From a virus: a stretch of DNA of 30,908 bases. Below, in pieces: positions 5,433 to 9,407 of this stretch. Made by a program: the position numbers and the translations under genes. The notes beneath the pieces were generated by a model that did not search any database, had not been told where the DNA came from, and saw nothing but the letters and a program-made list of their open reading frames with translations. Numbering within the stretch: the stretch's first letter is position 1; each line of letters begins with the position of its first letter. Location: positions 1-30,908 of IMG/VR virus record IMGVR_UViG_3300025093_001141. One strand, given 5' to 3'.

Positions 5433-5822
5433 ATGGCACGTTTTGCAGGAACAGCACTAACTGATTATTTCAATACTCCTGATTTCACAACAGTGGGTAA
5501 AACCAATATGCAAGGGCAATCAATGCAGCGAAACGCTGCCACCAAAGCAGAAGGTTTAGTACACGGTGCTGGTATAAACAGCATGGCTGAAGTTGCACAA
5601 GCTGGTTTCCAAGCTGAAGCTATTGAAGCTCAAGGTCAGGCACAAGCTCAAGCATCAATTGCTAGCGGTATTGGCAGTATGGTGAGCGGTATTGCTGGAG
5701 GCTTCGGCTCTTGGGGTGGCGGTGGAGGAAGCTCATATGGTGGGACTGGTGGTAAATATGGAAGTTTTGTACCACCTACTCCAGTCGCTGGCAAGCCAGG
5801 CGTTTATACATTTGGTAGTTGA
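5433..5822 (+). CDS. Small virion protein: shared 'PDFT/KAEG' module plus glycine zipper
   Basis: A 129-residue protein in three parts. Residues ~16-50 carry the motif PDFT...GQSMQRNAATKAEG, which aligns with the N-terminal parts of the S74 protein at 5852 and the SleB-like hydrolase at 8412. Residues ~50-75 form an Ala/Gln/Glu-rich helix. Residues ~75-100 are a Gly/Ser/Ile zipper (ASGIGSMVSGIAGGFG), and the tail is Gly-rich with aromatic and Pro residues. It is thus the minimal version of the architecture seen in the other two proteins, without an enzymatic C terminus. It starts four bases after the previous stop. The family is unknown to me; assembly together with the other two proteins is an inference from the shared module. 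Confidence 0.6.
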   Translation: MARFAGTALTDYFNTPDFTTVGKTNMQGQSMQRNAATKAEGLVHGAGINSMAEVAQAGFQAEAIEAQGQAQAQASIASGIGSMVSGIAGGFGSWGGGGGSSYGGTGGKYGSFVPPTPVAGKPGVYTFGS

Positions 5823-5828
5823 TAAACT
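5823..5828 (+). promoter_or_regulatory. Weak candidate -10 box TAAACT
   Basis: TAAACT lies 23 nt before the ATG at 5852. It has the spacing of the recurrent TAnAAT boxes but one mismatch. A partial Shine-Dalgarno AAGAGG (5832-5837) also sits in this gap. Low confidence. Confidence 0.25.
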
Positions 5829-5851
5829 GTAAAGAGGTTAACCGTAGATAG

Positions 5852-6577
5852 ATGGCAAGTTTTTCAAAAACTATTACTACTCCAACACGGACACGTATTA
5901 ACAGACACACTCCTGGGCAAAATAGTTTTAGTCCTGTGGATTTTAGACCTTCAGGTGGTCCTCCATCAAATGCTGGTGCTGCCGCAGGTAATGTAAACCT
6001 TGGCAATACCTTCGGCTCACTAAGGAAGAATGGACCACGATTTGATGAGTTAGCAGCAACAGCAATTGCTAACCGTGCACAAGAACGAGCTACTGTCACT
6101 GCTGTAGAGGGTGAAGTAGCTGCTCAAGGTGTACAAGCTTATGGTGCTACGAAGTCTGCAAAGATTGTTTCTGAAGCACAGATTGCAGCGGCAAAGGAAC
6201 AAGCTCAAGGAGCGATGATGGGCTCTGCTCTTGGTGCCATTGGTTCTATCGGCGGTGCACTCATTGGTCTCTCTGATGAGAGCACTAAGCATACGGTTGA
6301 GCGTATTGAAGATGCCCTGGCAACTTTGAGAAATCTCAAGCCTGTCACCTTCTACTACAAAGAAGAATTCAGTATGCTCCCTGAGCGTATGCACTACGGT
6401 TTCATCGCACAAGATTACGCAAAGGTAATGCCTGATGCAACTTACTACGATGAAGAATTGAGTAAAATGTGTATTGACACTAGTGAACTTATTAGTCTGC
6501 TAGTCCGCTCTGTTCAACAGCTTGAAACCCGTGTTGCACGGATGGAAGCTTCTAACGCACTTGCAGGAGTTAAATGA
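5852..6577 (+). CDS. Peptidase_S74 intramolecular-chaperone protein with N-terminal shared module
   Basis: 241 residues. The C-terminal half (about 140-236) matches the Peptidase_S74 intramolecular chaperone domain: SDESTKHTVERI with the candidate Ser141/Lys146 pair, then LRNLKPVTFYYK, HYGFIAQDYAKVMPD and DTSELISLLVRSVQQLETRVARME. In tail spikes and fibres this domain trimerises, folds the upstream part, and then cuts itself off before the Ser. Here it is carried by a short protein instead: residues 63-90 are the shared module (ERATVTAVEGEVAAQG), and residues 118-140 are a glycine zipper (GSALGAIGSIGGALIG) ending exactly at the expected cleavage Ser. Cleavage would therefore release an N-terminal product of about 140 residues ending in the zipper. 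Neighbours are other Gly-zipper proteins rather than fibres. Confidence 0.75.
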   Translation: MASFSKTITTPTRTRINRHTPGQNSFSPVDFRPSGGPPSNAGAAAGNVNLGNTFGSLRKNGPRFDELAATAIANRAQERATVTAVEGEVAAQGVQAYGATKSAKIVSEAQIAAAKEQAQGAMMGSALGAIGSIGGALIGLSDESTKHTVERIEDALATLRNLKPVTFYYKEEFSMLPERMHYGFIAQDYAKVMPDATYYDEELSKMCIDTSELISLLVRSVQQLETRVARMEASNALAGVK

Positions 6578-7302: not shown

Positions 7303-7308
7303 TAGAAA

Positions 7309-8415
7309 ATGGCTCCTAAGCAAAGGCCTTCAGCAACTGATTTTTACGTACCAGAGAATATTCTGGATAGGGCTGAAGATATCCTAAGTCCTACTACTGG
7401 CAAAATTAGTGATGATAATCTACCTACAACTGGTGATGACCCAATTCAAACTACGGGTGATGCACTGCTAGGCGGATACATCAACACAATTCTTGGAACT
7501 ATTCCTGGTGCAAACCTGATAGCACCTGCAGTCACAAACTATATTGGTGGTCAACGTACTCAAGGTAAAGGCGTCAGCTTGCTTGACCCCTTTGGTATGA
7601 CGGGTGCACGTGATGAGAGGATTTCGGAGCTAGCGCAAGAAGAAGGTATTGGTGAGAAGTTTAATTCAGATACTGGTAGGTATAGCCATTTAGGTGGACT
7701 TGTTGACCGTTACGTGCATGGTATTACTGATGATGAAGTTACTTCTAGAGTTGTAAGAGACAACCATAGCAGAATTAAAGGGAGTAAAGAATACCAATAC
7801 CTTAAAGATGAGAAAGGACGTGAATATGTAGATCAAAATTATGGACCTCTTGTATCTGGCACTAAAGTCAGTAAAGATGGAAGAACCTTAGCTCAAACTA
7901 ATAAGCTAATTACAGAGATTGAAGGTATTGAAAATGGTAAGAAGCTTCTAGATGCAGCAAGAGCTGAAGGTAAAACCTTGAGCGTAGGTGAGTTGGAAGC
8001 TATTAAAGCTAAAGCAGATCGCTTAAAACCTCTAACAGAAACTGAGCAAGCTAACCTTGAGGGTACAAAACAACAGACTCAAGCTTCAAAAGATCGTACT
8101 AGGATTGCAGAAGAAACACTGACACAGCGTGGTAAAGAGCACTCAGACAGTAACTCACTTGCATTAGCCAAACTCGAACTTGCAGACCGCACTGCGCAGT
8201 ACAACGTAGATGTTGCAAACATCAAGATCCGCAACCAAGCTGCACAGGCTGAAGCTGATCGTGAACTACGTAAAGATCTTGCGTTACTTACTCGTGGAGA
8301 CAGGAAAGACGAACGTGAGTATCGTCGTGAACGTGATGAGCGAAAAGACCGTCAGCTTATGATTCTTCAGCTCATGAACGGTCTCAAGCAGATGGGCCAA
8401 TCATTTGCTCTTTAA
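7309..8415 (+). CDS. Hypothetical virion protein with C-terminal coiled coil
   Basis: A 368-residue protein. Residues ~50-85 contain a hydrophobic Gly-rich patch (ALLGGYINTILGTIPG, IAPAVTNYIGG). The middle is polar, and residues ~240-355 are strongly predicted helical coiled coil rich in Gln, Glu, Arg and Asp (RTRIAEETLTQRGKEH, AEADRELRKDLALL, DEREYRRERDERKDRQ). It ends in a hydrophobic tail (QLMNGLKQMGQSFAL). The stop codon overlaps the stop of the convergent hydrolase gene (TTTAA at 8411-8415). The function is unknown. The coiled coil following a hydrophobic patch resembles the organisation of internal virion proteins that oligomerise, which is inference. Confidence 0.55.
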   Translation: MAPKQRPSATDFYVPENILDRAEDILSPTTGKISDDNLPTTGDDPIQTTGDALLGGYINTILGTIPGANLIAPAVTNYIGGQRTQGKGVSLLDPFGMTGARDERISELAQEEGIGEKFNSDTGRYSHLGGLVDRYVHGITDDEVTSRVVRDNHSRIKGSKEYQYLKDEKGREYVDQNYGPLVSGTKVSKDGRTLAQTNKLITEIEGIENGKKLLDAARAEGKTLSVGELEAIKAKADRLKPLTETEQANLEGTKQQTQASKDRTRIAEETLTQRGKEHSDSNSLALAKLELADRTAQYNVDVANIKIRNQAAQAEADRELRKDLALLTRGDRKDEREYRRERDERKDRQLMILQLMNGLKQMGQSFAL

Positions 8416-9407
8416 GTCTGATGGGAGTAATGAAAGAAGTTACCTTTAGGGTGAAACATAGGATCTAACATTCCTCCTTTATTACCCTTACTAGAACGGT
8501 ACTTCAGCATAGTTTGGCCTTTAAAGTCAGTACGACCGTCAAGGACTTTCAGTGCCTTTAAGATTTCAGCACGTCCTTTATCGGAAGACAAGTCAGCAGC
8601 AATATCAGGTCTTTGTTTAGACAGACCTTTGTATACGCCTTCATACTGTCCATCTTGATAGATCACATCTTTAACAGTTCCAGGCCATTTGTCTGAAGCA
8701 ACCCTATTAAGAATAGATGCTGCGACACCATACCGGTCTTTACCAGGACCTGCTTCCGAGCTAATAGCATACGCCAAGTGATTAAAGTCCTCATCTGTTA
8801 ATTTTGAAAGATCCATAGATCCAGCAAGCGGTTGACTTTGATAAGTAGTTACTGGTGAAGAATCCCCACTAGTGTTAGAACTTGAACTACTGCTACCACT
8901 ACTACTACCAGTAGGCTGATCTGTACTAAGCGTAGGACGCTCTAACGTCGGTGCATCTGGAATCATCTCAGGCGTGGGGTTTGGCTGTGAAAGCCTGGTT
9001 TCCATAGCCTTAGTGCGCTCGTCAAACTTTTTCATCCATTCATCATGAGCAGCCTCGTCTTTCTTAGATTGCTGGCCAAGTACATAAGCACCAGACAAAG
9101 TACCTAAAGCACCTACAACACCCGCAAATCGACGTGCAGGTCTTTTGATACTTTCGACTTTTTCAGCAGTCTCTGCACGAGTCTTTGCGTACTTTGTTTT
9201 AGTAAATGCATCAAGACCAGCACTAGCAACTTCACCTTCTGCTTTAGTGACAGCACGACGTTCCAGTGAACGACCTTTAATAGCTTCCTTCGAAATCTTG
9301 GTGAAGTCAGGCTTGCCCGACATGGCAGCATCAAAGATTTGATCTGATGCACGCACAACAGCTTTAGCTGAAGTCGAATAATTACCAACTCTTCTAGATG
9401 TTGCCAT
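8412..9407 (-). CDS. SleB-like cell-wall hydrolase (Hydrolase_2) with shared virion module
   Basis: 331 residues on the minus strand. Residues ~200-331 match the SleB/CwlJ Hydrolase_2 family, which cleaves peptidoglycan glycan strands: LAYAISSEAG with candidate catalytic Glu218, RYGVAASILNRV, WPGTVKDVIYQDGQYEGV, GRTDFKGQTMLKY and DPMFHPKGNFFHYSHQ. Residues 32-66 carry the shared module PDFTKISK..ERRAVTKAEGEVASAG, also present at 5433 and 5852. Residues ~93-112 form a Gly-rich hydrophobic segment (FAGVVGALGTLSGAYVLG), and 165-186 are a Ser-rich linker. This suggests a virion-carried lysin acting during entry, although an endolysin role is possible. A back-to-back promoter with the next plus-strand gene supports the ATG at 9407. 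Its stop overlaps the convergent neighbour's stop. Confidence 0.82.
   Translation of the reverse strand: MATSRRVGNYSTSAKAVVRASDQIFDAAMSGKPDFTKISKEAIKGRSLERRAVTKAEGEVASAGLDAFTKTKYAKTRAETAEKVESIKRPARRFAGVVGALGTLSGAYVLGQQSKKDEAAHDEWMKKFDERTKAMETRLSQPNPTPEMIPDAPTLERPTLSTDQPTGSSSGSSSSSSNTSGDSSPVTTYQSQPLAGSMDLSKLTDEDFNHLAYAISSEAGPGKDRYGVAASILNRVASDKWPGTVKDVIYQDGQYEGVYKGLSKQRPDIAADLSSDKGRAEILKALKVLDGRTDFKGQTMLKYRSSKGNKGGMLDPMFHPKGNFFHYSHQT

Follow-up and report, generated by a model that had tools for sequence, protein, structure and literature searches.

This study examined three genes, termed slots A, B, and C, in a viral contig of 30,908 bases (IMG/VR record IMGVR_UViG_3300025093_001141; hereafter the window), whose terminase, portal, and capsid genes are those of the S-EIV1 lineage. 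A first-pass annotation had claimed that the products of these genes are virion proteins sharing one N-terminal module, followed by a Gly-rich hydrophobic segment and by different C-terminal ends. Slot A (positions 5433–5822, plus strand), delimited as an open reading frame (ORF), by alignment, and by a hidden Markov model (HMM), encodes a protein of 129 residues. It comprises the module (residues 1–73, positions 5433–5651, with PDFT at residues 16–19), which was located by pairwise and profile alignments, and a Gly-rich tail, in which residues 74–96 (5652–5720) form a moderately apolar segment with a Kyte–Doolittle peak of 1.17.

Slot B (5852–6577, plus strand; ORF, Pfam, and alignment) encodes 241 residues. 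The same types of alignment placed its module at residues 30–121 (5939–6214), with PRFD at residues 62–65; a Gly-rich segment follows at residues 122–140 (6215–6271; peak 1.58), and the C-terminus is a Peptidase_S74 intramolecular chaperone domain (6272–6574) that matched PF13884 over residues 141–196 (E value 1e-13, cut-off passed). Slot C (8412–9407; ORF, Pfam, and alignment) lies on the minus strand and encodes 331 residues. It consists of the module (residues 1–93, 9129–9407, PDFT at residues 33–36; alignments and HMM), a Gly-rich segment (residues 94–113, 9069–9128; peak 1.26), a predicted helix and Ser-rich linker recognized from the alignment (residues 114–198, 8814–9068), and a SleB-like hydrolase (8415–8813), whose residues 225–292 matched PF07486 (Hydrolase_2) with 42.4 bits (1e-10) against a curated cut-off of 27. 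In the structural model of C, residues 148–196 had a predicted local distance difference test (pLDDT) score below 50. A Foldseek search with this weak model returned only the SleB catalytic domain as its top match, which was not significant (E value 0.4). Residue E218, in the E-A-G-P-G motif, is a candidate for the catalytic glutamate of the SleB family. The annotation had thus named the C-terminal ends correctly (none for A, Peptidase_S74 for B, and a SleB-like hydrolase for C), and its hydrophobic stretch was Gly-rich as described but only moderately apolar.

We gathered relatives of the window by using the terminase as bait, which yielded 80 contigs; slots A, B, and C were then aligned separately, and one HMM was built for each. 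Within the window, the local alignment scores were 83 for A–B, 113 for A–C, and 121 for B–C, and none of 1000 composition-preserving residue shuffles reached any of these values (best scores 63, 59, and 72, respectively). The alignments started and ran as the annotation had indicated, around PDFT/PRFD and then R..ER.A.T..EG.V...G, although the module of B and C extended further toward the N-terminus, with approximately 110 residues aligned. When the HMMs were searched against about 5,500 ORFs and their reversed decoys, HMM-A matched B (2e-12) and C (1e-8), HMM-B matched C (1.7e-13) and A (4e-9), and HMM-C matched B (1e-9) and A (1.4e-6), the next window ORF scoring 0.09. Each HMM retrieved the other two proteins as its only significant matches in the window, the check that the annotation had proposed, and ranked many orthologs of the other slots ahead of the decoys. 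The decoys were far worse for HMM-A and HMM-C, and the best one for HMM-B (0.0024) was itself a reversed slot-B protein. Profile–profile comparison joined C with B at a probability of 98 (E value 2e-13, 108 columns), B with A at 7.5e-11, and C with A at 4e-8. The common helical module is approximately 60–110 residues long. A convergent or purely compositional likeness of low-complexity Ala/Glu/Arg-rich helices is hardly credible, even though the segments are Ala-rich and predicted to be helical, because the shuffles and the decoys refute it at the sequence level.

A tree of 63 modules separated slots A, B, and C, with one long-branched A row misplaced. Because the slots split on this joint tree, A, B, and C are, by their sequences, ancient paralogs whose duplication predates the sampled lineage; a recent origin by duplication in each genome was rejected on the same ground.

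The module had no match in Pfam or NCBIfam. The PHROGs database yielded no match for A, only S74 for B, and only the cargo for C, and the module alone produced scattered, weak, single-member matches. One family, phrog_1980, seemed to extend upstream of S74, but the N-terminal part of B alone gave no such match. Sequence searches of the PDB with the slot-C and slot-B profiles returned lysozymes, S74 proteins, and weak, unrelated coils, and nothing for the module. The annotation's statement that the module has no named family was borne out in these three family collections, and, as neither Pfam nor NCBIfam matched it and PHROGs gave nothing consistent, the module fell into no known fibre-docking family. 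It was not found in 50,697 phage records at tblastn sensitivity, a search in which the low-complexity filter may hide Ala-rich matches, nor was it found in S-EIV1 itself or in 80 contigs of the S-EIV1 clade that were retrieved through the portal of this phage. Judging from these searches, the module is a feature of a marine sister clade of S-EIV1.

The cargo of slot C fell into seven sequence clusters, two of which had no Pfam match in the members scanned, and included at least four unrelated peptidoglycan-hydrolase families of Pfam (Phage_lysozyme2, SLT_3/SLT, Hydrolase_2, and Glucosaminidase). In six pairs of close relatives, the modules were 71–97% identical and the cargo was different. The window and contig L003 constitute one such pair: their terminases were 97% identical, and the identity of their slot C proteins was near 100% up to residue 60 and dropped to about half beyond it. 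In contigs L080 and L085, the DNA was 98% identical up to approximately codon 115 of slot C and replaced thereafter, placing the recombination breakpoint directly behind the Gly-rich segment. The cargo changed 17 times on the module tree and 6 times on the smaller tree of the terminase gene terL, which covers 19 of the 36 slot-C bearers after a sequence filter. By these comparisons, one enzyme of slot C has repeatedly given way to another, unrelated one, with the module kept in place. Slot C exhibits the arrangement by which fibre and tailspike docking is recognized, namely, a conserved N-terminal module with exchanged C-terminal domains.

We further analyzed whether the modules of one genome resemble each other more than those of different genomes, using module scores that were normalized for composition and averaged by clade. 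The Z score was 6.2 within a genome and 1.7 between genomes for A–C (p = 0.0001), 5.8 and 3.7 for B–C (p = 0.0013), and 4.1 and 2.9 for A–B (p = 0.022), and the A–C and B–C results held when any one clade was dropped. The own-genome excess had a period of 100–102 degrees, that of an alpha-helix (p = 0.013 for A–C and <0.0002 for B–C), and the column profile placed the covarying positions at +10, +13, +17, +20/21, +31, +34, and +38 from the P of PDF. The simplest reading of this pattern is that one helical face fits a partner common to A, B, and C. Gene conversion, rather than a common partner, might keep the modules alike within a genome, as paralogs at a single locus are able to convert one another and C is present in inverted form. 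The three genes of the window, however, have no shared DNA word longer than 12 nt, and synonymous codon choice was at chance, with the same codon at 230 of 555 identical residues against 241 expected. This lack of synonymous likeness argues against recent gene conversion, and both the separation of the slots on the joint tree and the helical period of the excess point the same way; gene conversion is disfavoured, and we consider it improbable. Because the within-genome likeness occurs without synonymous likeness and at helix-periodic positions, docking by the module is well supported.

The Peptidase_S74 domain of slot B was absent from about half of the slot-B orthologs aligned. In all 11 orthologs bearing it (ten alignment rows and contig L076), a Ser-Lys dyad was spaced at +5; in the window, this predicted self-cleavage dyad consists of Ser141 (6272–6274) and Lys146 (6287–6289) on the plus strand. 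The same dyad occurs in endoNF and MyRF; cleavage of MyRF takes place immediately ahead of the Ser and requires the trimer (PMC8326128). B would likewise form a trimer and cleave itself. Because the dyad is kept, cleavage should leave a B protein of approximately 140 residues, the size of the S74-less orthologs: the predicted N-terminal products span 110–140 residues, the S74-less orthologs 137–146, and slot A proteins 105–145. The S74 domain would accordingly be a removable folding aid, and mature A and B would be alike in plan. The annotation had treated this domain as a self-cleaving chaperone carried as cargo; it is better read as a removable folding and trimerization chaperone of B itself.

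The annotation had also interpreted the module as a docking or membrane-delivery tag. The first part is upheld, as the cargo swaps, the lack of a known family, and the covariation all favor a docking module with varied cargo, a lysin and a self-cleaving chaperone among it. Membrane delivery is weak and did not gain support, because the Kyte–Doolittle peaks of the Gly-rich segments (0.3–1.7) were mostly below the transmembrane threshold of 1.6 and lowest in slot C, the lysin slot.

These findings suggest that a single docking module underlies the paralogs A, B, and C, with an exchangeable hydrolase in C and a self-trimming B, an explanation to which we assign a probability of roughly 0.7. The module would combine a short helix with a long one, joined by a turn at P-D/R-F; the long helix would end in the Gly-rich segment, and one of its faces would bind a common particle partner, which may be another structural protein or other modules in a mixed helical bundle. 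In C, the module would seat the peptidoglycan hydrolase on the flexible Ser-rich linker so that the cell wall could be opened at entry. B would be folded by its S74 domain, probably as a trimer, after which the domain would cut itself off before Ser141 and leave a module protein of approximately 140 residues, the counterpart of A and of the S74-less orthologs. With docking separable from the enzyme, lineages could exchange the enzyme by recombination at the end of the module. The homology and paralogy of the modules, the cargo swaps, the one breakpoint, the conserved Ser-Lys dyad, and the covariation were observed in the sequences, whereas presence in the virion, the identity of the partner, trimerization, self-cleavage, and the role at entry are inferred.

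Several points weigh against this explanation. The AlphaFold monomer models were poor (pLDDT 59 for C and 48 for B). The B and C models nevertheless agreed in plan, with a turn at P-D/R-F between a short and a long helix (predicted helices at residues 10–30 and 35–98 of C and at 50–60 and 64–123 of B); given the poor confidence, this shared plan is consistent with the explanation and confirms nothing. The clades over which the covariation scores were averaged were grouped by ourselves, and an old gene conversion whose trace at silent sites has been lost could also produce the within-genome similarity. Slot A was missing from a subset of members and is thus dispensable. Among six records bearing the module, mostly fragments, a single one contained a GH24 endolysin.

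This last point bears on whether slot C is an ordinary host-lysis endolysin, its N-terminus being a membrane or oligomerization anchor that times release and its likeness to A and B reflecting a re-used generic helix. No GH24 endolysin was found in the other five records; moreover, the strand of C is opposite to that of its neighbors, so that its transcription is separate from theirs, as for a lysis gene with its own timing, and its types of cargo domain also occur in endolysins. A generic helix does not account for the specific homology of C to A and B or for its within-genome covariation with them, and the hydropathy of its Gly-rich segment is mostly well below the transmembrane threshold. 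A separate GH24 lysozyme was present in contig G003 and in most S-EIV1-clade genomes searched, and G003 carries slot C together with a canonical Phage_lysozyme gene (4.9e-44). The separate lysozyme suggests that host lysis has its own enzyme, apart from slot C, and we regard the endolysin explanation as unlikely.

Another explanation, partly compatible with docking and differing in where the module sits, is that the phage ejects A, B, and C as internal (pilot) proteins like gp14–gp16 of T7; the Gly-rich segments would enter the envelope membranes as a conduit, and the C cargo would cut the wall. Small helical proteins rich in Ala and Gly abound in the cluster, which also contains a hydrolase, and some neighbors have stronger apolar segments (peak 1.86 in the product of g4190, the gene preceding slot A). 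In T7-like phages, a peptidoglycan-hydrolase domain can move between ejection proteins (PMC8954989). Against this, the hydropathy of the module proteins is weak, no PHROG ejection protein was matched, and S74 domains are annotated mostly on tail fibres and baseplate proteins; we therefore find it rather doubtful, though worth weighing. As for the partner in the docking explanation, the A, B, and C modules may pack with one another as a mixed helical bundle. Such a bundle would be a part of the particle not described before, a self-assembling opener of the cell envelope: B, trimmed by its chaperone, would build the scaffold, optionally together with A, C would contribute a wall-cutting enzyme that can be interchanged, and the interface would co-evolve in each genome; we offer this only tentatively.

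The window belongs to the S-EIV1 lineage by its terminase, portal, and capsid proteins and by gene order. Its TerL was 55.6% identical to that of S-EIV1, and the portal, capsid, and other structural proteins matched those of S-EIV1 with a best E value of 1e-198. The S-EIV1 TerL (L002, 18081–20621) has 846 residues versus 512 in the window, with an inserted stretch bearing intein-like ends (C-L-V-G-D-T ... H-N-F-I-A-N-G-F-N-V-L-N-C). These sequences place the window in a widespread group of uncultured marine viruses that is a sister clade to cyanophage S-EIV1. The hosts are very probably marine cyanobacteria, given that PsbA, a transaldolase, and a ferredoxin-type protein are encoded on a related 82-kb contig. 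The S-EIV1-lineage contig G001 (L093, 10266–11345) carries psbA alongside the transaldolase and ferredoxin-type genes.

The gene order g3723-g4190-A-B-g6574-g7309-C(inverted)-g9470-g10447-terL was kept in related contigs, and slot C was opposite in orientation to its neighbors in every related terL-bearing contig having it. In the window, the slot C stop overlaps the stop of the convergent gene at 7309–8415, and its start faces gene 9470 across a divergent intergenic space of 62 bp (9408–9469), where the slot C promoter is expected; no consensus sigma-70 site was present there, and promoter and terminator scans were at background. In contig G002 (87 kb; L052), a frameshift breaks slot B and a stop codon breaks slot C, through either decay or assembly error. 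The protein encoded at 9470–10447 (plus strand), adjoining slot C, is a possible partner; it contains tandem repeats of the type IGAQGxxDRxxI and varies in length among relatives. The adjacent proteins at 13012–13758 and 13762–14778 (plus strand) have in common an Asn/Asp-rich repeat motif, QNVNQDND followed by V.GDNNTV..QDNSIRQYGG, which constitutes another module duplicated within the genome, in the same structural block as A, B, and C. A full RpoD-like sigma factor (regions 1.2, 2, 3, and 4) is encoded within this block at 18500–19441 (plus strand). Contigs G001 and G003 encode it as well, suggesting that transcription is under phage control.

The S-EIV1 isolate has reportedly been described as a new and widespread lineage of phages, and we know of almost no functions assigned to the structural genes of this lineage. 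From sequence evidence alone, the present analysis outlines a docking family, its likely interface on one helical face, and a locus that exchanges peptidoglycan hydrolases like cartridges. The conservation of the module while the enzyme is swapped suggests that the virus particle has a docking system of the plug-in type. It provides a handle on how phages of this lineage may open the cell wall, and its mapped breakpoint makes it a natural experiment in the swapping of lysins; the module is also a candidate for a short tag by which enzymes could be attached to a phage particle.

The arrangement resembles that of receptor-binding proteins such as the Klebsiella phage depolymerases, which have a conserved N-terminal module that attaches to the particle and an exchangeable, recombining C-terminal domain, with several such proteins possible per virion (PMC8262889). 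Slot C, by comparison, exchanges a peptidoglycan hydrolase rather than a receptor-binding or capsule-degrading domain. The module also differs in being an Ala-rich helix with no consistent PHROG match. Of its three bearers, moreover, A terminates in the module and a Gly-rich segment, as B should once it has cleaved itself. Similar to gp14–gp16 of T7, the slot proteins are helical and include a peptidoglycan-hydrolase domain able to move between carriers (PMC8954989); in contrast to those proteins, they have no detectable PHROG sequence relation to them, are smaller and weak in hydropathy, carry the hydrolase C-terminally behind a Ser-rich linker, and bear an S74 chaperone on one paralog. With the Peptidase_S74 (ICA) fibre proteins, such as endosialidase and MyRF, B has in common a C-terminal S74 domain and a Ser-Lys dyad at +5, whereas its S74 domain sits on a helical module protein of approximately 140 residues rather than on a large beta-rich fibre. 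The phage tail lysozyme of S-EIV1 (PF18013) is of the same family as the cargo in ten slot-C members; in S-EIV1, it is encoded among the putative structural genes as a free-standing protein, at another genome position and without the module. By sequence, the module matches neither the receptor-binding attachment family nor the T7 ejection family, though it appears to work like both.

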